A DNA stretch of 64,000 bases from the NCBI RefSeq assembly GCF_002242685.1, contig NZ_NBIM01000001.1, positions 2,021,156-2,085,155 of the forward strand, written 5' to 3'. The notes under the pieces were generated by a model, which was not told the origin of the DNA, ran no database searches, and saw nothing but the letters and a program-made list of their open reading frames with translations. Numbering within the stretch: the stretch's first letter is position 1; each line of letters starts with the position of its first letter. This document shows positions 12,669-21,104 of the stretch, in pieces. Origin of the DNA: Oceanimonas doudoroffii (GTDB lineage: Bacteria > Pseudomonadota > Gammaproteobacteria > Enterobacterales > Aeromonadaceae). The translations under genes were made by a program, and so were the position numbers.

Positions 12669-13487
12669 TCAGTCCAGGGTGACTTCGTAGCCGGTAAACT
12701 TGCGCAGGTTAATCACCCCGGTGTCGAGGATCAGATACTGCCCCTTGATGCCCAGCAGGGTGCCGGCCACCACGGGGTTCTTGTCAAAGTTGTGGCTGAC
12801 AATCTTTGTCGGGTATTCCAGCACCGGGTAGCTGAGCTCCACCGGGGGTTCATCGAGCACGGTAATGGCCTCGTTGCCGTATTTGAGCGTGAGCTCGGCC
12901 AGCTTCTCTTTGATTTCCGGCAGCAGACGTTCGGCTTCGCCCTTGAGATCGATGGGCGTTTCATCGCCCTTCAGCATGGCGCGCCAGTTGGTCTTGTCGG
13001 CCACCATATCGGCCAGGGCCACTTCCACAAAACCGGACAACTGGCGGGTAGCCACGCTCAGAATCGGCAGCGCCTGGGTAGCACCCTGATCAATCCAGCG
13101 GGTGGGCACCTGGGTATGGCGGGTGATGCCCACCTTGATACCCGAGGTGTTGGCCAGATAGACGATGTGCTGCACCATGCAGTTGCGATCGCCCCACTCG
13201 GGCTCACGGCAGGTGCCCTCAAAATAGTGGCAGGTTTCCGGCTTCATCACGCACATGTCGCAGCGGGCCAGCTTCTTCATGCAGGGAAAGCAGTGGCCCT
13301 GAGAGTAGCTTTTTTTGGTTTTGCGGCCGCAGGCATCGCAATAGATATTGCCGCCGAAGGTCAGTTTCAGGGGCTGGCCCAGGCGGGCATTGAGGTCGAT
13401 GCGGTGCTCGCCCAGGGCCAGTTCATAGGCCACGGGCGCATCCAGCCGCGCCGGCATCTTGATCAGGGTTCCGGTGAGGTTGCTCAT
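12669..13487 (-). CDS. DUF2797 family protein with zinc-binding cysteines
   Basis: A 272-residue conserved protein of the DUF2797 family, role unknown. Cysteines are grouped as C-D-A-C-G (residue about 49), C-F-P-C-M (about 67), C-D-M-C and two later ones, which suggests a zinc-ribbon pair in the N-terminal third. The rest (VYLANTSGIKVGITRHTQVPTRWIDQGA) resembles a GIY-YIG-like fold segment, a comparison made by eye. ATG at 13487 (MSNLTGTLIKM) is chosen as the family-like start; an ATG at 13520 is in frame. It stands alone between the bts locus and a GntR gene and shares the terminator at 12626-12657. Confidence 0.75.
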   Translation of the reverse strand: MSNLTGTLIKMPARLDAPVAYELALGEHRIDLNARLGQPLKLTFGGNIYCDACGRKTKKSYSQGHCFPCMKKLARCDMCVMKPETCHYFEGTCREPEWGDRNCMVQHIVYLANTSGIKVGITRHTQVPTRWIDQGATQALPILSVATRQLSGFVEVALADMVADKTNWRAMLKGDETPIDLKGEAERLLPEIKEKLAELTLKYGNEAITVLDEPPVELSYPVLEYPTKIVSHNFDKNPVVAGTLLGIKGQYLILDTGVINLRKFTGYEVTLD

Positions 13488-13556
13488 GCTTGCTTCATCA
13501 TTGTTATGGTATGAAGCCATTCTATCAGCCGAGTGAATGAGAGTCCCGGCGCCGGA

Positions 13557-14246
13557 TCAGCGCTCGCCCGCGTCTCGCTGGCGGGACTGCTCAAAACGCG
13601 CCTTGAACTTCTCGCCGATCTCGCTAAAGGTGGTGATATTTTCTTTCGCCAGTCGTGACGCCAGCTCGGCGTTACCGGCACAGATGGCATCCACCAACGG
13701 CTGATGGCTGGCGGCAATCTCCGCCGGCTCATGGGTGACTAGATCAATGTTGAAATAAATCAGCATCTGGTTGGCCACGTTCTGGTATATGCCGTAAAGC
13801 CGCTGGTTCTCGCTCAGCTCCACAATCAGGCTGTGCAGGCTAAGCTCCATTCTGCTCAGCTCCTGACTATCCACCCCGGGGGTAGCGGCCTTCTCCAGAA
13901 ACAAATTCATCATTTGCCGCAGCCGCTCGCGGCCTTCGGCACTCAGCCGCTCGGCCGCCAGCCAGGCGGAAATAGGCTCCAGAGCCACCCGCAAATGAAA
14001 TAACTCCCACAGATCATGCTCATTCAGATCTATCACCTGCCAGCCCACATAGGGGGTCTGAACCACTATGCCTTCGTGGGCCAAAGTGTTCAGCGCCATG
14101 CGCACCGTGCTGCGCGACAGCTCCAGCTCCCGGGCCAGGGCACTTTCCACCAGCCTTTGCCCCATTCGGAAATGACCACTGAGGATCAGCTCGCGCAGAT
14201 AATCGGCGGCTTGTTCCTCCAGGCTGCTTTTAATGATTTTTTTCAT
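13557..14246 (-). CDS. GntR-family (FadR/FCD subfamily) regulator of the UxaA/BCCT cassette
   Basis: A 229-residue FadR-type GntR regulator. The winged helix-turn-helix covers residues 10-75 (YLRELILSGHFRMGQRLVESALARELELSRSTVRMALNTLAHEG) and an all-helical FCD effector domain follows. FCD histidines that often hold a metal are only partly evident. It diverges from the four-gene cassette at 14449-18672 with 202 bp between starts, so it most likely controls that cassette and binds one of its acid intermediates. No clear ribosome-binding site precedes the ATG at 14246. Confidence 0.87.
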   Translation of the reverse strand: MKKIIKSSLEEQAADYLRELILSGHFRMGQRLVESALARELELSRSTVRMALNTLAHEGIVVQTPYVGWQVIDLNEHDLWELFHLRVALEPISAWLAAERLSAEGRERLRQMMNLFLEKAATPGVDSQELSRMELSLHSLIVELSENQRLYGIYQNVANQMLIYFNIDLVTHEPAEIAASHQPLVDAICAGNAELASRLAKENITTFSEIGEKFKARFEQSRQRDAGER

Positions 14247-14370
14247 TACATATCAATCGTTAGAGTGAATCGAGCGAGAGCATTGTACCGGATTCCGCAC
14301 CACGAAAGGCGTGCTGCCGGCATTCCGCCGCTCAAATATGTGTGATGAGCAGCCAAAAAATACACACATT

Positions 14371-14404
14371 TTACGCTGTTACTTGGTTTTAACATATGTA
14401 TAAT
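14371..14404 (+). promoter_or_regulatory. Probable promoter/operator of the UxaA/BCCT cassette
   Basis: TATAAT at 14399-14404 is a consensus -10 box 44 bases before the first cassette start. TGTTAC at 14377-14382 is a poor -35 at 16-bp spacing. ACATATGT at 14392-14399, a perfect palindrome, overlaps the -10, where a GntR repressor could block polymerase. A related TACATATC lies next to the gntR start on the other side. Operator role is inferred. Confidence 0.4.
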
Positions 14405-14448
14405 CGCCGACTGTAGATTGTAGGACAATCAACAAAAGGATAGTTCAT

Positions 14449-14787
14449 ATGACAGTTAAAGCCATTCGTCTGGCCCAACAGGACAACGTGGCCACCCTGC
14501 TGAGCGATGCGCTAAAGCATCAAGCAGTCGACGTTATCGACGATAAAAATCGGCTGGTTGGCCGCTATCAGGCACTCCAGGCCATTCCCTTTGGCAACAA
14601 GATGGCGCTGCACGCCATTGCTTCCGGGCAGCCCGTGAGCAAGGCAGGCCATGCCATTGGCGTTGCCATCTCCGCAATTCCAGCAGGTGAGCTGGTGCAC
14701 GTCCAAAACGTGCGCAGCCAGCGGCTCGACATTCCGCCCGCCATTATCGGGCAGATCATTGACCAGATGCGGATCGAAACCGAATGA
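14449..14787 (+). CDS. SAF-domain small subunit of a split UxaA/SuyA-type lyase
   Basis: A 112-residue SAF-domain protein equal to the N-terminal part of altronate/galactarate dehydratases (UxaA, GarD) and to the separate small subunit SuyA of sulfolactate sulfo-lyase. Characteristic are IRLAQQDNVATLL at the start, GNKMALHAIASGQPVSKAGHAIGVA in the middle and AGELVHVQNVRSQR near residue 85. The stop overlaps the start of the large subunit by 4 bp (ATGA), as expected for partners made in fixed ratio. In this fold the small subunit is thought to contribute to the metal site. It is first gene of the cassette under the divergent GntR regulator. Substrate is not known; sugar acids or sulfonated hydroxy acids are the known choices. 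Confidence 0.85.
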   Translation: MTVKAIRLAQQDNVATLLSDALKHQAVDVIDDKNRLVGRYQALQAIPFGNKMALHAIASGQPVSKAGHAIGVAISAIPAGELVHVQNVRSQRLDIPPAIIGQIIDQMRIETE

Positions 14788-15962
14788 AACAGGAATTTCA
14801 GGGTTACCGGCGCCCCAATGGCCAGGTTGGCATTCGCAACCACATTTTGATCATCGCCATTGATGAATGTGCCGAGGGCATCGCCCAGGCCGTGCGTCAG
14901 CAGGTCAGCGAGTGCGTCATCGTCACCAATCACTACACCTGCATGTATGCCGGCAACGAAGAACTGGTCAATATCATGACCGGTGCCGCCCTTAATCCCA
15001 ATGTGGCGGGAGTACTGCTACTCAACATGGGCTGCGGCAGCATAGACCCGACCCTGATCGCCACTCCGATAGAGCAGGCGGGCAAACCGGTCCGGCGGCT
15101 GTCGATCATCAGGAACAAGGGCACGCGTCAGAGCATTCGCGACGGTGTCGCCCTGGCAAAAGAGCTGGTGGCGCTGGCGGCGACAATCCCGATAGCACCG
15201 GTGGCCCTCAGCGAGCTGCTGGTGGGAGTGAAATGCGGCGGCTCCGATACCAGCTCCGGCATCGCATCCAACCCGGCGGTGGGTCGCGCAGTGGATGCCT
15301 TGGTAGATGCCGGTGCCAGCTGTGTGGCCGGCGAACTGATTGAGCTGATTGGCTGCGAAAGCATTCTGCGCCAGCGGGCGGTCAGCCCAGCGGTGGCCGA
15401 CAAGCTGGAGCGGCTGATCCAGGAAGAAGAGCAGCGCTGGCACGTGCCCGGTACCGAGGTGGAAACCATGAGCATCGGCAACAGTGTCGGCGGCCTCACC
15501 ACCCTGGAAGAAAAGGCTTTGGGCGCCCTGCACAAAACCGGCACCCGCCCCATTCAGGACGTGCTGCGCATTACCCCGCAAGGAATCGAAACACCTAAAG
15601 CGCCGGGTATGTACCTGTCGGAAACCACTCACCTGTGCGGTGGCTCGGGCATGCACTTTGCCGCCCTGGGGACCCAGGTCATTTTGTGGACCACCGGCGG
15701 GGCCGGCTTCAGCAACCCGATCGTGCCGGTGATTCGAGTGAGCGGCAATGCTTTGCTTATCACCGAAGACATCGACGTGGATGTAAGCGGCATCATGTCG
15801 GCTACCCAAAGCGTGGAGCAGGCGGCCGGCGACGTGCTCGACTGCCTGGGCCGGGTTATCGACGGAGAACAAACCGCCATTGAGGAAGTCGGCTTTGCCT
15901 ACTGCTCGCTCTATCAGAAGGACCAGCGCCTGGAAACGCTGATCCATGCCCAACCGGTTTAA
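14784..15962 (+). CDS. Large catalytic subunit of a split UxaA/SuyB-type dehydratase or lyase
   Basis: A 392-residue protein matching the C-terminal part of altronate dehydratase and the large subunit of sulfolactate sulfo-lyase (SuyB). Marks are GYRRPNGQVGIRNHILII at the start, the NHYTCMYAG cysteine segment near residue 50, LLVGVKCGGSDTSSGIASNPAVG near 155 and a histidine/cysteine region THLCGGSGMHFAALGTQ near 285. These enzymes use iron or manganese to remove water, or sulfite, from a hydroxy acid. It overlaps the SAF subunit by 4 bp and is followed 11 bases later by an enolase-superfamily enzyme. Compared with UxaA the two domains are separate genes, as in SuyAB. The context transporter is BCCT, unusual for a sugar acid. 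Confidence 0.85.
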   Translation: MKQEFQGYRRPNGQVGIRNHILIIAIDECAEGIAQAVRQQVSECVIVTNHYTCMYAGNEELVNIMTGAALNPNVAGVLLLNMGCGSIDPTLIATPIEQAGKPVRRLSIIRNKGTRQSIRDGVALAKELVALAATIPIAPVALSELLVGVKCGGSDTSSGIASNPAVGRAVDALVDAGASCVAGELIELIGCESILRQRAVSPAVADKLERLIQEEEQRWHVPGTEVETMSIGNSVGGLTTLEEKALGALHKTGTRPIQDVLRITPQGIETPKAPGMYLSETTHLCGGSGMHFAALGTQVILWTTGGAGFSNPIVPVIRVSGNALLITEDIDVDVSGIMSATQSVEQAAGDVLDCLGRVIDGEQTAIEEVGFAYCSLYQKDQRLETLIHAQPV

Positions 15963-15973
15963 AAGAGGATTAA

Positions 15974-17092
15974 ATGCATATAACCGATGTGGAAGTGATT
16001 TGCCTGCGGGTGCCGGCGGCGGATCAGGAGTGCGAGTGGGGCGAAGACGCGGTCATTGTGCGGGTGCACACCGACACCGGCCTGATTGGCGTGGGTGAAG
16101 CAGACAGCTCTCCCGCCGTGATCAAGGCCTGCATTGAAACGCCCCAGTCCAACCTCTATTGCCACGGTCTGCGCTCGCTGCTGATCGGTGAAAACCCGCT
16201 GGAGATAGAGCGGCTGTGGAACAAAATGTACTGGGCGTCCAACTACGTGGGCCGCCGGGGCGCCGGCATTCATGCCATCAGCGCGATCGACATAGCCCTG
16301 TGGGACATTGCCGGTCAGTTTTACCAGGTGCCGCTCCATACCCTGCTGGGCGGGCGGTACCGGAATCGCATCAAGGCCTACGGCACCTTTATTCCCGATG
16401 CCGACCCCGAGGCCAACGGTGCCATTGCCGCCGGACTGGTAGCCCAGGGCTTTACCAGCATCAAGTTTGGCGGCGGCGTGTTCGGCGACGATCCCGATAC
16501 CGATGTGCGCATCGTCAAGGCGGTGCGTGAAGCCGTGGGCGAGCACATAGAAGTGCAGATCGATCTGGCGTCGAAGTGGCGCACCTCGGGGCACGCCGCC
16601 TGGATGGCCGAACGCCTGGCGCCCTTCAACCTGAACTGGATTGAAGAGCCGGTACTGGCCGACGATCTGGCCGGTTATCAGCGGCTGGCGGGAAAGCTCA
16701 AGGCCAAGCTGGCCGGGGGCGAATCGCTCACCACTCGTTACGAATTCAAACATTTTCTGGAGCATTCCGGGGTCGATATCGTACAGCCGGACATCACCCG
16801 CTGCGGCGGCATCACCGAAATGAGGAAGATCTACGATCTGGCTCAGTTGTATGGCGTGCAACTGGTACCCCACGGATTCAGTACCGGCATTTTGCTGGCC
16901 GCCTCGGTGCATTTCCTTGCCGCCAGTGAACACGGCACCCTGATGGAATACTCCCAGAGTCAAAGTCCGTTGTTCACCGAACTGGTGGCCAACCTCCTGC
17001 CTTTTGAACAGGGTCATGTTCCGGTCCCGAACTCACCCGGGTTGGGTGTGGAGCTCAACGAAGACATCCTCGACCGGTACCGTGTGTCATAA
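15974..17092 (+). CDS. Mandelate racemase/sugar-acid dehydratase-type enolase-superfamily enzyme
   Basis: A 372-residue enolase-superfamily enzyme of the mandelate-racemase subgroup. The residues line up closely: K164 (SIKFGGG; the second lysine of KxK is Gly), metal ligands D197, E224 and E250, and the D273/H300 dyad (QPDITRCGG and LVPHGF). Members of this subgroup dehydrate acid sugars (galactonate, rhamnonate and others) or racemise alpha-hydroxy acids. GAGG lies six bases before the ATG. It is the third cassette gene, directly before the BCCT transporter, so its substrate should be the same compound or its enantiomer. A role in epimerising or dehydrating a hydroxylated betaine-like compound is possible but only inferred. 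Confidence 0.85.
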   Translation: MHITDVEVICLRVPAADQECEWGEDAVIVRVHTDTGLIGVGEADSSPAVIKACIETPQSNLYCHGLRSLLIGENPLEIERLWNKMYWASNYVGRRGAGIHAISAIDIALWDIAGQFYQVPLHTLLGGRYRNRIKAYGTFIPDADPEANGAIAAGLVAQGFTSIKFGGGVFGDDPDTDVRIVKAVREAVGEHIEVQIDLASKWRTSGHAAWMAERLAPFNLNWIEEPVLADDLAGYQRLAGKLKAKLAGGESLTTRYEFKHFLEHSGVDIVQPDITRCGGITEMRKIYDLAQLYGVQLVPHGFSTGILLAASVHFLAASEHGTLMEYSQSQSPLFTELVANLLPFEQGHVPVPNSPGLGVELNEDILDRYRVS

Positions 17093-17112
17093 ATGAAATG
17101 GAATCATTCAGC

Positions 17113-18672
17113 ATGAAGCAAACAAGAAACACCATCGACAAACCGCTGATGCTGGTCAGTCTGACCACCATCTTTTTTATCGTGGCGGGTCTGTCTGTCT
17201 ATCCCGAGCAGGGAAATGCCATTGCCAAGCGACTGTTTGGCATGCTCACCGAGCAGTTCGGTTCACTGTACCTGCTGTTTGGCTTTTTCAGCGTCATCGT
17301 GCTGGCCTGCATCGCCTTTGGCAAACACGGCAACATTCGCCTGGGTGAACACAAGCCCCAGTACAGCCTGTTTACCTATCTGGCCATGATGATCTGCGCC
17401 GGCCTGGGATCGGCCACCGTGTACTGGGCTTTTCTGGAATGGGGCTATTACTACATGAACCCGCCCTACGACATTGCCCCCCACTCCACCATGGCGGCAG
17501 AGTGGGCCACCAGCTACAACATGTTCCACTGGGGCATTTCGGCCTGGTCGCTGTACTGCATTGCCTCACTGCCGGTGGCCTATTCCTTTCACGTGCGCAA
17601 GAATTCCCAGCTTAAGCTGTCCGCCGTGTGTGAAAGCATCATGGGGCGTTTCTACAATGCCGCCGTGGGCCGAGTGATCGACACCATCTTCATCTTCAGC
17701 TGCGTCGGCGCCATGGGCATTACCCTTGGGCTGAGCGTGCCCATGGTGACCGAAGGCATCGCCTCGCTGCTGGGCACCGAAAACGGCTTTGGCATGAACC
17801 TGGGACTGATGCTGGCCATTACCGCCCTGTTTACCGTCAGCTCCTACGTGGGCATCGAAAAGGGCATGGCCAGGCTAAGCGACATGAACACCAAACTGGC
17901 GGTGCTGTTCGTACTGGCCATTCTGGTGCTGGGGCCGACTACCTTTATCATCGATCAGTCCGTCAACGGTTACGGCCTGATGCTGCAGAACTTTATTCGC
18001 ATGAGCCTGTGGACCGATCCGGTGGCAGGTGGATCCTTCCCGACATCCTGGACCGTATTCTACTGGGCCTACTGGATGACCTATGTGCCCTTTATGGCGC
18101 TGTTCGTCACCAAGGTGTCGGCGGGCCGCACCCTGAAGGAAGTGATCCTCAGCATGGTCGTGGGTGGCAGCGCCGGCTGCTTTATCTTCTTTGGTGTACT
18201 GGGCAGCTACAGCATGAGTACCCATCTCCACGATCTGGTCAACGTCACCGAATCGCTCAACAGCATTGGCGGCTCGGCTACCGTAGTGGCAGTGCTTAAG
18301 ACCCTGCCGTTCAGTACCCTGTTTATTCTGGTGTTTGCGGTGATGTCGGTGCTGTTCCTTGCCACCACCCTGGACTCGGCGTCTTTTACCCTGGCGGCCA
18401 CCGCCTCCAACCAGCTCGACGAAAACGCCAACCCGCCTACGGCACTACGGCTGTTCTGGTGCCTGATCCTGGCGGCGGTGCCCCTGGCGATGATGTTTAT
18501 CGACGCCCCCCTGAGCACGGTGCAGACCCTGGCCATCGTCACTTCACTGCCGCTGATGGTAGTGATCTTTATCATGCTGTACGGTTTCTTTCGCTGGCTT
18601 AATGGCAGGGAGACCCTGAGCCGGCAGGCTTCACATTCCGACGAACAACCGGCAGTCATCGCGGCCGATTGA
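17113..18672 (+). CDS. BCCT-family (betaine/carnitine/choline-type) transporter
   Basis: A 519-residue carrier with 12 membrane spans. The BCCT substrate and signature regions are visible: GLGSATVYWAFLEWGYYYMNPP near residue 100 and FYWAYWMTYVPFMALFVTKVSAGRT near 320. The tryptophan-rich box and the glycine-poor unwound segment (no GMGIG) are more like CaiT, a sodium-independent exchanger, than like sodium-driven BetP. ATG at 17113 has GGAA ten bases upstream; an in-frame ATG at 17098 lacks a site. It ends the four-gene cassette and is followed by a terminator. BCCT carriers move quaternary ammonium or sulfonium compounds, which bears on what the enzymes act on. Confidence 0.87.
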   Translation: MKQTRNTIDKPLMLVSLTTIFFIVAGLSVYPEQGNAIAKRLFGMLTEQFGSLYLLFGFFSVIVLACIAFGKHGNIRLGEHKPQYSLFTYLAMMICAGLGSATVYWAFLEWGYYYMNPPYDIAPHSTMAAEWATSYNMFHWGISAWSLYCIASLPVAYSFHVRKNSQLKLSAVCESIMGRFYNAAVGRVIDTIFIFSCVGAMGITLGLSVPMVTEGIASLLGTENGFGMNLGLMLAITALFTVSSYVGIEKGMARLSDMNTKLAVLFVLAILVLGPTTFIIDQSVNGYGLMLQNFIRMSLWTDPVAGGSFPTSWTVFYWAYWMTYVPFMALFVTKVSAGRTLKEVILSMVVGGSAGCFIFFGVLGSYSMSTHLHDLVNVTESLNSIGGSATVVAVLKTLPFSTLFILVFAVMSVLFLATTLDSASFTLAATASNQLDENANPPTALRLFWCLILAAVPLAMMFIDAPLSTVQTLAIVTSLPLMVVIFIMLYGFFRWLNGRETLSRQASHSDEQPAVIAAD

Positions 18673-18696
18673 GCCAGCTTGTAAACCGGAAAACTC

Positions 18697-18729
18697 AAAA
18701 GGGCGAAAGCGTGTGCTTTTGCCCTTTTT
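18697..18729 (+). terminator. Terminator after the UxaA/BCCT cassette
   Basis: AAAAGGGC-GAAAGC pairs with GCTTTT-GCCCTTTT across GTGT, then TTG. It ends the cassette 25 bp after the transporter stop. Confidence 0.8.
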
Positions 18730-18793
18730 GCTTTTTGAGCCCCTGCTTCCATACTCAGCCTCACGCCCCCCTCAACTCATCAAGGAGCACGCC

Positions 18794-19213
18794 ATGGCCC
18801 CCGTGCACTATCCGCGTCTGACTCACCTCGCCCTGCATGTGCGCAATCTCGACGCCTGCCTGCTGTTTTACCGGGACTTTTGCGGCATGACAGAAACCCA
18901 CCGGCGGGAAAGCGGCCCCCAGACCATCGTGTGGCTGGCGGAGCCGGGCCGGGAGCAGGACTTTGTGTTTGTGCTGATGAACGGCGGCGAGGATCTGCAC
19001 CTGGGTGAGCGGGACTACCGCCACTTCGGCTTTGCCCTGCCCAGCCGCGCGGCGGTGGACGCCCTGGCCGAGCAGGCCAGACGGGCGGGCTGCCTGCTGT
19101 GGCCGCCCCGGGACGAGCCCTTTCCGGTGGGCTATTACTGCGGGGTCAAGGATCCCAACGGCAACCAGGTGGAATTCAGCTTTGGTCAGCCTCTCGGTCC
19201 GGCCGCGCACTGA
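18794..19213 (+). CDS. VOC-superfamily (glyoxalase/dioxygenase fold) protein
   Basis: A 139-residue protein of the vicinal-oxygen-chelate fold: two beta-alpha-beta-beta-beta modules. The metal ligand positions are occupied by H11 (LTHLALHVRN), the acidic/his region in RHFGFALPS near residue 75 and E in QVEFSF near residue 128, as in glyoxalase I-like and fosfomycin-resistance-like proteins. AAGGAG precedes the ATG at 18794. The last 38 bp overlap the 3' end of the PhoD-like gene on the other strand. The reaction cannot be named from sequence; substrates in this fold range from methylglyoxal adducts to catechols. Confidence 0.82.
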   Translation: MAPVHYPRLTHLALHVRNLDACLLFYRDFCGMTETHRRESGPQTIVWLAEPGREQDFVFVLMNGGEDLHLGERDYRHFGFALPSRAAVDALAEQARRAGCLLWPPRDEPFPVGYYCGVKDPNGNQVEFSFGQPLGPAAH

Positions 19214-21104
19214 GCCCCGGCTTCAGGCTGTCCACCGGCTCAAGAAAGTCCACCACGCCCTCGTGGGTAATCTGCTGCACGCACACCGGCTCGCCCTGCT
19301 CGTTAAAACGCACATGGCCGATACCGGCGCGGTTGAGCAGCCGCTCGCCCTTAGACGCCGCCACCGGTGAGTGCGGGGTAATGCGCAGCCGACGCCGGCG
19401 GGTGAACCAGTTCAGCGGCGAGCGCGGCGCATAGAGCCAGCGGTTGAGCCGGTCGAGCACGTCCAGCAACCGGCGCGGAAACTCATTCTTGATGCCACTG
19501 CTGGTGATCTGCCAGATATGGGGCTCGCCCCCCCGGTGTCGCAGGCGAATGTCGTACATAAAGGAGTAGTGCACGTCGCCGGAGAGGATCACGTAGTTGG
19601 CCGGCGTGCGGGCATGACGAAAGATATTCAGGATCACGTTGGCGGTGCCCTTGTGGGCCATCCAGTTTTCCGCGTCCACCAGCAGCGGCTTGCCCAGCCA
19701 GGTAAAGATCTTCTGGATCACCTCGATCAGTTTCACCCCGAACACCGGTGTGGGCGACACCACCACCACCGACTCCTGGTGCAGCATCTCGCCCTGCAGC
19801 TCGGTGAGCGCCTCCCAGTCCATCAATCCGGACGGCCGGCTGAAATTGGACTCGGATCGCCAGCGCCGGGTACGGGTGTCGAGCACCAGCAGCCGGGGTT
19901 TTGTGTCGAGCTGATATTGCCAGCCGTCAAAGGCCAGCAGGCTGTCGATCAGCCGATCCTGGTACGCGCCGGTAGGATCCTGGCTCCAGGCCTGCAAGCG
20001 CTCCAGGGGCTCGCCGGCAAAGGCGTCGGGATCATTGCCCCAGCCCTGACAGATCAGGTAGCCCGCCAGGGCATTGCCAATGATCCGCCGGGAGAACGGA
20101 TGGCCATAGGCGCTTTCCTCCCAGGCGGCGGTGAGATTCCAGTCGTCGGTCACGTCATGATCGTCAAAGATCATCAGGCTGGGCAGGTTGGCCAGCAGCC
20201 GGCGCACCGCCGGCAAGCCATCCACAAAGGCCGCAAGCCGGTCCCGCTCGTGCTGATAACGCTCGGCCAGCTTGCCGTCGAGCCGCGGCCGGTCATCGGG
20301 CAGCAGCCGCCAGGGCACCGGCGACCACACCAGCAGATACATGGCCAGCACCTCGGCCAGGGTGATCAGGTGGTTGGCGGCGCTGCTGGTGGTAAAGATG
20401 GGCTTGCGCGCCCCTTCAAAAAAACGCTTTTGCAGCGGCACGTTGGCCCGCGTGTCGGGCAGCAGCTCATTGCGCCGGTAATAGTTGAGGGGGCTGGCAA
20501 AGAGCTCGGCGCTGTCGGCCACCAGGGCCCCCTCCAGCTGCTCGTCGTACAGCCCCAGCACCTCAATCAACTGGTGAATGGCGGTCAGCATGGGGCCGGC
20601 CACGTCGTCGGCATAAATTTGGTCGCCACTCATCATCATCAGCGCCGGCCGCTGCCGAGGCTGCCGGTGGCGCTCGGCCAGCCAGTCATCCGCCGCCACC
20701 AGACCGTCGGGGGCGGCATGATGGGGCTTGCGGCAAGAGCCGTGCAGCAGGCTGTCGAGCCGCTCCCGAATCACCAGCGCCGGCAGGCTTTCCCCCTGGT
20801 AACACAGCTCCCCGCCCCAGTCGGCCATGCCCTGCCAGTGTGGTTCGTTCACTCGGCACCATTGCAGATCGTAGGGCAGATGGGTGTCGGTGGGCAGGGG
20901 GTCGTCCAGCCTCAGATCCAGCAACTGAATAAAGCACGACTCGCCCACCCGCAGTTGCCGGTGGCCGTCACCGGAAAATGGCAGCGGGTCGCGGCCGGGC
21001 AGACACAGCCGAAAGTTCAGGGCTTCGCGGCTGGCCAGCCAGAATACCAGGCGTTCACTGTTGGCGCGGCGCAGCAGGGGGCCGGCGAGAATGGTGGAAT
21101 CCAT
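19176..21104 (-). CDS. PhoD-like metallophosphatase family protein
   Basis: A 642-residue protein of the PhoD-like phosphatase family (binuclear metal fold). Metal-site segments are MMMSGDQIYADDV near residue 157, MIFDDHDVTDDWN near residue 315 and ILSGDVHYSF near residue 510. There is no signal peptide or twin-arginine motif, so unlike Bacillus PhoD it should stay in the cytoplasm; bacterial relatives of this type are uncharacterised. An N-terminal region of about 140 residues (DSTILAGPLLRR...) resembles the PhoD N-domain. It is alone, with its 3' end overlapping the VOC gene by 38 bp in convergent orientation, and diverges from the chemoreceptor gene. Substrate unknown. Confidence 0.82.
   Translation of the reverse strand: MDSTILAGPLLRRANSERLVFWLASREALNFRLCLPGRDPLPFSGDGHRQLRVGESCFIQLLDLRLDDPLPTDTHLPYDLQWCRVNEPHWQGMADWGGELCYQGESLPALVIRERLDSLLHGSCRKPHHAAPDGLVAADDWLAERHRQPRQRPALMMMSGDQIYADDVAGPMLTAIHQLIEVLGLYDEQLEGALVADSAELFASPLNYYRRNELLPDTRANVPLQKRFFEGARKPIFTTSSAANHLITLAEVLAMYLLVWSPVPWRLLPDDRPRLDGKLAERYQHERDRLAAFVDGLPAVRRLLANLPSLMIFDDHDVTDDWNLTAAWEESAYGHPFSRRIIGNALAGYLICQGWGNDPDAFAGEPLERLQAWSQDPTGAYQDRLIDSLLAFDGWQYQLDTKPRLLVLDTRTRRWRSESNFSRPSGLMDWEALTELQGEMLHQESVVVVSPTPVFGVKLIEVIQKIFTWLGKPLLVDAENWMAHKGTANVILNIFRHARTPANYVILSGDVHYSFMYDIRLRHRGGEPHIWQITSSGIKNEFPRRLLDVLDRLNRWLYAPRSPLNWFTRRRRLRITPHSPVAASKGERLLNRAGIGHVRFNEQGEPVCVQQITHEGVVDFLEPVDSLKPGLSARPDREADQS

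Follow-up and report, generated by a model that had tools for sequence, protein, structure and literature searches.

Known members of the UxaA/GarD superfamily (COG2721) and of the mandelate-racemase (MR) group of the enolase superfamily take the alpha proton of a hydroxy acid, and the dehydratases among them also eliminate the beta group. The sulfo-lyase SuyAB, with its small SAF subunit and its large subunit, belongs to the same superfamily as UxaA and GarD; DddT, YeaV and CaiT are the closest described carriers to the one considered here, and the Cai operon, which takes carnitine to gamma-butyrobetaine, is a described pathway with comparable elements. Here we describe a four-gene operon in a 64,000-nucleotide stretch of Oceanimonas doudoroffii DNA (contig NZ_NBIM01000001.1, positions 2,021,156 to 2,085,155; hereafter the window) that places a two-subunit UxaA/GarD-type lyase and an MR-group enzyme beside a BCCT carrier. 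As judged from alignments and a tree, the lyase is a separate branch of its superfamily and not a SuyAB. The cassette may well import and dehydrate a hydroxylated carnitine-like zwitterion, a substrate class that is fairly supported.

Architecture, conservation and regulation of the cassette

The features of the cassette, in window coordinates, are as follows.

13557-14246, minus strand: FCD-subfamily GntR regulator, divergent (Pfam GntR 58.5 bits, FCD 70.8 bits)
14416-14430, no strand: operator-like palindrome GATTGT-N3-ACAATC, 15 bp
14449-14787, plus strand: lyase small subunit with a SAF domain (Pfam SAF 21.6 bits, barely passing the cut-off of 21) and a GNK motif
14784-15962, plus strand: lyase large subunit of the UxaA/GarD superfamily (Pfam GD_AH_second and GD_AH_C; Cys29, Cys53, Cys84 and Cys151)
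15974-17092, plus strand: MR-group enolase-superfamily enzyme (Pfam MR_MLE N and C), kin of PDB 3SJN
17098-18672, plus strand: BCCT carrier of the YeaV/DddT/CaiT kind (Pfam BCCT)
18697-18728, plus strand: terminator-like stem-loop, 14 pairs and a T tail

An earlier note on this DNA had described a four-gene cassette with a divergent GntR regulator of the FCD subfamily, and both the gene calls and Pfam confirmed it. The two lyase genes overlap by 4 bp, and the gaps that follow are 11 bp (large subunit to MR gene) and 5 bp (MR gene to BCCT gene), the latter becoming 20 bp if the carrier starts at the in-frame ATG at 17113. The 14-pair stem, which is the longest among nine candidates in 13400-19400 (shuffles: mean 5.0, standard deviation 2.6), agrees with the cassette end that the note had given.

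When the large subunit was used as the query against genome contigs, 15 loci were returned, 13 of them gammaproteobacterial (Oceanimonas 1, Oceanisphaera 1, Vibrio 4, Photobacterium 6 and Psychromonas 1) and two from Oceanirhabdus (Clostridia). The window's order of GntR, small subunit, large subunit, MR enzyme and BCCT was found in 12 of the 13 gammaproteobacterial loci (L009-L019 and L021); in the thirteenth, L020, the contig ends within the large subunit and the locus was left out of the carrier counts. The same gene block is present in a further genome of the window's genus (L099). Since the gene order recurs in 12 genomes and in L099, the cassette is a genuine conserved unit, more than a product of chance. 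In samples of genomes, the MR protein was identified at E<=1e-100 in 3 of 398 for the phylum, 7 of 394 for the order and 1 of 274 for the class (overlapping samples, with the window's own genome included in each count), whereas for the lyase, at E<=1e-90, the counts were 22 of 169 for the Vibrionaceae, 2 of 147 for the Oceanirhabdus order and 1 of 6 for the family of genome G904 (centre genomes included).

Upstream of the small-subunit gene, a TATAAT hexamer occupies 14399-14404, and 11 bp beyond it lies the perfect palindrome GATTGTAGGACAATC (14416-14430); if one mismatch is tolerated, the expectation for the window is 0.08 occurrences. A simple promoter scan listed no site in the 14399-14430 region. 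We sought GATTGTNNNACAATC in 11 genomes, and the exact 15-mer was found in nine of them, in 13 places, all between the GntR and small-subunit genes; no exact copy lay outside the cassette in those nine genomes, in a search that degenerate sites would escape. When the match was loosened at the outermost base of one arm, the operator was present in 15 of 15 window-type loci and in 8 of 15 loci that have an EamA carrier. The exact palindrome suggests a one-operon regulon, from which it can be argued that the product of the pathway would enter general metabolism.

The two-subunit lyase and the MR-group enzyme

The large subunit has GD_AH domains, and it has four cysteines at the positions where E. 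coli UxaA and GarD have theirs; it is on these features that we place it in the UxaA/GarD superfamily. It is 27-29% identical to E. coli GarD and UxaA, and differs from them in being one of two subunits, in having a partner with GNK rather than GHK, and in having an onium carrier adjacent. Its score against the NCBIfam equivalog for galactarate dehydratase (121.8 bits) is below the cut-off of 730.85. In the tree, the 34 large subunits that were compared, after duplicate copies of one locus had been dropped, formed one clade with support of 100/100 and a long stem. All 34 keep the four iron cysteines and 33 carry an LCG...MHF motif. The small subunits, 33 in number as that of L144 was not found, all have NK where the superfamily, including 15 of 15 outgroup rows, has HK.

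The earlier note had likened the two-subunit split to that of SuyAB, a kinship that did not survive comparison. Watanabe (PMC6336799) describes the four superfamily cysteines as conserved save in sulfolactate sulfo-lyase. The same paper names a two-subunit L-fuconate dehydratase from its gene context, so that split subunits are not diagnostic of SuyAB, and split pairs were common outside SuyAB among the other loci read. Our two SuyB references were themselves called from gene context, L034 having TRAP, HisD, SDR and putative sulfate exporter genes as neighbors and L035 a putative sulfate exporter. Both references, as well as a Variovorax protein (L038), retain the fourth cysteine only, such that CCCC in the window corresponds to IR-C in the two SuyB proteins. 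The window lyase resembles SuyAB in its small SAF subunit and separate large subunit, but it keeps all four cysteines, is 32% identical to the SuyB references, lies outside their branch and has none of the sulfonate-type neighbors found there; SuyAB membership was rejected on these grounds.

A sulfonated compound had also been among the substrates suggested by the note, and 3-sulfolactate or any other sulfonate now appears extremely unlikely, as the split subunits are all that speaks for it, such subunits are common outside SuyAB and the SuyB pattern is absent. Nor do the genes that flank the cassette most closely in the window (CstA, DUF2797, VOC and PhoD-like, by Pfam) support a sulfonate. 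The window's flanking genes are present only in L009 and L010 among the 12 genomes that share its gene order. The VOC (glyoxalase) gene at 18788-19213, which has a weak likeness to fosfomycin glutathione transferases (27.7 bits; cut-off 180), was considered as an operon member and rejected because it is placed past the terminator and because, among L009-L023, no locus other than L009 and L010 gave a match to it.

The lyase might still act as SuyAB does without belonging to it. The MR-group enzyme would then racemize a beta-trimethylammonio or beta-dimethylsulfonio alpha-hydroxy acid, which the lyase would split into pyruvate and trimethylamine or dimethyl sulfide, an elimination for which SuyAB is a precedent within the superfamily (PMC6336799). 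A single operon would do for such a route, and the solved carrier with the top score for the window BCCT is DddT. We consider this elimination decidedly unlikely, given that the lyase has the four dehydratase cysteines and stands outside the SuyB branch, and we know of no abundant natural beta-onium lactate that could serve as the substrate.

The MR-group enzyme matches PDB 3SJN, which we take to be a Shewanella pealeana protein, with 623 bits over almost its full length; no function for 3SJN was found in the open literature among the matches listed. In an alignment with E. coli DgoD and RhmD, Lys164, Asp197, Glu224/225, Glu250, Asp273 and His300 fall on catalytic positions, presumably the lysine, the three acidic metal ligands and the Asp-His dyad, and with these residues conserved the enzyme belongs to the MR group. 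It reached the cut-off of none of the 16 named NCBIfam families tested (best 227.8 bits, cut-off 311). A Trp-Gly-Glu/Gln-Asp stretch near residue 22, which is kept in the aligned cassette MR enzymes, could act as a cation holder. Of the 33 cassettes, 28 have the MR gene, and its absence within 6.5 kb in the other five points to a core role for the lyase and an accessory one for the MR enzyme.

The BCCT carrier and its counterparts at related loci

The BCCT tree was built from 25 carriers of the window's own genome (the 26th, in L093, was missed when open reading frames were picked), three E. coli proteins and every cassette carrier but that of L137. All 17 cassette BCCTs in the tree fell in one 23-row clade (support 100/99) that also takes in CaiT, YeaV and three further carriers of the own genome. 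Just 4 of the 25 own-genome BCCTs are in this clade, in which CaiT is a long branch. The L137 carrier is 88% identical to the Oceanirhabdus BCCT. Distances among the lyases were closely correlated with those among the BCCTs (r=0.97 for the 14 gammaproteobacterial loci, with a Mantel p of 0.0002, and 0.87 when all 17 are taken).

A study of DddT, the top-scoring solved protein for the window BCCT, describes Na+ ligands at Ser256, Thr418, Thr419, Asp421 and Ser422 and an aromatic pocket (PMC13270143). In our alignment the window carrier retains all five ligands together with Trp140, Trp321 and Tyr324, the substitutions being Trp320 to Tyr and Ser204 to Thr. Its aromatic box and Na+ ligands are thus mostly as in DddT. 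Of the four Na+ side chains in transmembrane segment 10 (TM10), CaiT keeps one (T), with Leu, Asn and Ala at the others; T-T-L-D-S in the window thus aligns with T-L-V-N-A in CaiT. In addition, Arg262 of CaiT, which we take to be a stand-in for Na+, is Asn in the window carrier.

These residues bear on the exchange of substrate and product that the earlier note had proposed from CaiT-like traits of the carrier. The wider clade with CaiT stands, as does one shared methionine, but the latter (CaiT Met331) is uninformative because DddT has it too. The exchange itself was rejected as unlikely, in view of the retention of the DddT Na+ ligands, three of whose four TM10 side chains are changed in CaiT, and of the Asn at Arg262. 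Since the Na+ ligands are kept and the CaiT traits are absent, Na+-coupled import would be likelier than exchange. The carrier's substrate is not readable from its family, because two tested DddT-like homologues did not transport dimethylsulfoniopropionate (DMSP), according to the DddT study (PMC13270143). In contrast to the DddT system, no DMSP lyase gene was recognized adjoining the window BCCT. The window operon is like the Cai operon in joining a BCCT to the proposed dehydration of a carnitine-like acid, but differs from the E. coli set compared in having no coenzyme A (CoA) ligase, CoA transferase or CoA-ester hydratase.

Among the 33 cassettes with known surroundings, 18 have a BCCT, an uneven sample because the contig scan started from the window's own protein, and 15 have an EamA carrier (L138, scored as EamA, also has a BCCT approximately 3 kb from its lyase). 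The EamA cassettes form a single Vibrionaceae branch on the lyase tree (93/76), consistent with one change, and BCCTs occur in three lyase-tree groups: L068, the clostridial L022, L023 and L137, and the gammaproteobacterial loci. In L068 the gene order is MR-BCCT-lyase, and its basal position is supported at 90/65 only. The cassette BCCTs are of three kinds, namely the window type, that of L068 (50% identical to the window's) and the Oceanirhabdus type (36%).

The neighborhood comparison that the earlier note had called for did not reveal these enzymes with sugar-acid carriers. None was found within the 33 cassettes, whose genes were compared to our own reference set, flanks not being systematically scanned. 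For an outgroup we read nine loci (L069-L077) of 19 weaker clostridial lyase matches, 37-40% identical to the Oceanirhabdus lyase, and seven of the nine had a sugar-acid carrier beside the lyase (KdgT in five, GntP in two); an eighth had an MFS carrier, and L074 was not scanned for one. Plain sugar-acid dehydration with a BCCT adjacent by accident would suit the enzyme families, which are those of sugar-acid dehydratases, the KdgT and GntP neighbors of the outgroup and the EamA carriers of the Vibrionaceae. We regard it as very unlikely, however, in view of the zero count in the clade, three BCCT lineages linked to the lyase, the co-divergence of lyase and BCCT, the GNK motif, which is peculiar to the clade and present in all 33 small subunits, and a carnitine-type acyltransferase described below. 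In the outgroup loci L069-L071 and L073, genes resembling DUF1537 and PdxA were seen by eye to be adjacent (Pfam confirms L071 only), and a C4 sugar-acid route is possible for the split lyases of L069-L073, L075 and L077.

The window's own 3.8-Mb genome has a very large set of BCCTs (29 matches, 26 apparently full-length), and 21 stretches around these matches were examined (L078-L098). One of them (L097:2331-7435; C1:505830-510934) is a cassette of similar style, having a divergent GntR-like gene (by eye), a FAD-dependent oxidoreductase, an MR-group enzyme near PDB 4JHM (657 bits) and a BCCT that shares 42% identity with that of the window. At L098:5510-8538, a BCCT 41% identical to the window's is near an AhlS-like metallo-lactonase (467.8 bits, just missing the cut-off of 475). 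In L082/L083 (C1:776000-799500), two BetT-like BCCTs flank BKACE, a GbcA-like oxygenase, a reductase, an aldehyde dehydrogenase and SDRs, which is probably a betaine degradation cluster. Whether this cluster would prove that L-carnitine is catabolized was considered and rejected, since none of the genes around BKACE points to carnitine.

Candidate substrates and the proposed pathway

In the clostridial loci L022, L023 and L137, a PF00755 protein is encoded between the lyase and the BCCT. Its alignment with solved carnitine transferases extends to the catalytic His, and it has GRTE and an Arg (GVNRYL), as do the carnitine palmitoyl- and octanoyltransferases in the alignment; these positions reportedly discriminate carnitine from choline acyltransferases, a finding credited to Cronin in 1998. 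PF00755 proteins were identified in 5 of the 16 cassette genomes searched. The copies elsewhere in the Photobacterium and Psychromonas genomes have GRID and Thr, that of Psychromonas being near aldehyde and GMC dehydrogenases in a choline-oxidation-like context. A second Oceanirhabdus sp. copy of the carnitine type (L170:2645-12689) is with acetate kinase, phosphotransacetylase and two BCCTs, and this cluster perhaps gains ATP from acetylcarnitine. The clostridial anaerobes would thus seem to take up carnitine-like compounds in acylated form and to draw energy from the acyl group, which would imply that the cassette substrate bears a carnitine-like hydroxyl.

Carnitine itself is one candidate, with the lyase and MR enzyme as stereo-complementary, CoA-independent dehydratases that meet at crotonobetaine, the outcome being conversion of D- to L-carnitine or export of crotonobetaine. 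The acyltransferase of the three clostridial cassettes, the CaiT/YeaV/DddT-kind carriers and the one-operon regulon would all suit it. Nevertheless, carnitine lacks the alpha-hydroxyl that known members of both enzyme families require, its dehydration by itself yields no carbon, and BKACE, which is required for the 3-dehydrocarnitine route, is absent from 9 of the 16 cassette genomes. We therefore consider carnitine an unlikely substrate.

The hydroxylated carnitine-like zwitterion that we favor would most economically be 2,3-dihydroxy-4-(trimethylammonio)butyrate (2-hydroxycarnitine, presumably the sea-anemone compound anthopleurine) or its sulfonium analogue. This class was chosen because an alpha,beta-dihydroxy acid suits both enzymes and an onium zwitterion suits the carrier, and because the clostridial acyltransferase implies a carnitine-like beta-hydroxyl, a quaternary nitrogen and a carboxylate. 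In the pathway that we propose, the BCCT would take up the zwitterion, probably with Na+, and the two-subunit iron lyase would eliminate the beta-hydroxyl together with the alpha proton. Epimerization of the alpha carbon, or else dehydration of the other stereoisomer, might be the task of the MR-group enzyme, so that both isomers could be used, and GntR would repress from its single palindrome until substrate or product is bound. Dehydration would yield 2-oxo-4-(trimethylammonio)butyrate, from which trimethylamine could be lost. The sequences themselves establish the operon, the clade, the active-site residues, the type of carrier, the operator and the type of acyltransferase; the reaction, the coupling to Na+, repression, the precise substrate, the part played by the MR enzyme and all later steps are inferred from them.

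Several observations weigh against this proposal. The need for an alpha-hydroxyl is a general property of known UxaA- and MR-group enzymes that may not extend to this divergent clade. There is no enzyme for a 2-oxo-4-onio-butyrate inside the cassette, no search having been made elsewhere in the genome, and no MR gene within 6.5 kb in L137, L138, L144, L149 and L150. EamA replaces the BCCT in 15 of 33 cassettes, even with the BCCT share raised by the starting point of the contig scan, and the evenly sampled 22 Vibrionaceae lyase matches comprise 15 EamA cassettes, six BCCT loci and the cut contig L020. The acyltransferase occurs in only 3 of the 33. As for the operator, a reversed control pattern occurs once in 4 of the 11 genomes, the two genomes without the exact operator both have an EamA cassette, and even the relaxed form is missing from 7 of 15 EamA loci and from the four clostridial clusters, which have sigma-54 regulators instead.

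The reading of the earlier note is thus supported in part: the general kind of system stands, the SuyAB kinship and the exchange do not, and its hydroxylated onium class of substrate fits the onium carrier and the lack of a sugar-acid carrier. Nor did we find a described pathway that combines these enzymes with a BCCT, as no paper was found that joined UxaA with BCCT (with or without mandelate racemase), carnitine with mandelate racemase and BCCT, or sulfolactate sulfo-lyase with BCCT, although this absence is weak evidence because open papers only were covered. A literature route via anthopleurine was abandoned, as the papers, judged by title, concern the metabolome of mice that had been colonized by gut bacteria (one paper) or alarm cues, social predation, voles and synthesis (the others). 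We tentatively suggest the possibility that the cassette encodes a route for the breakdown of 2-hydroxycarnitine, or of the sulfonium analogue, that would be the first of its kind, built from a repurposed sugar-acid iron dehydratase and BCCT uptake, with a carnitine-type acyltransferase recovering acyl-CoA first in the anaerobic clostridia. If this is correct, the sugar-acid lyase superfamily would be extended to onium zwitterions, and the kin of the solved structure 3SJN would gain a testable role. The cassette would then represent an uncharted marine route for nitrogen- or sulfur-bearing osmolytes, one that may release trimethylamine or dimethyl sulfide.

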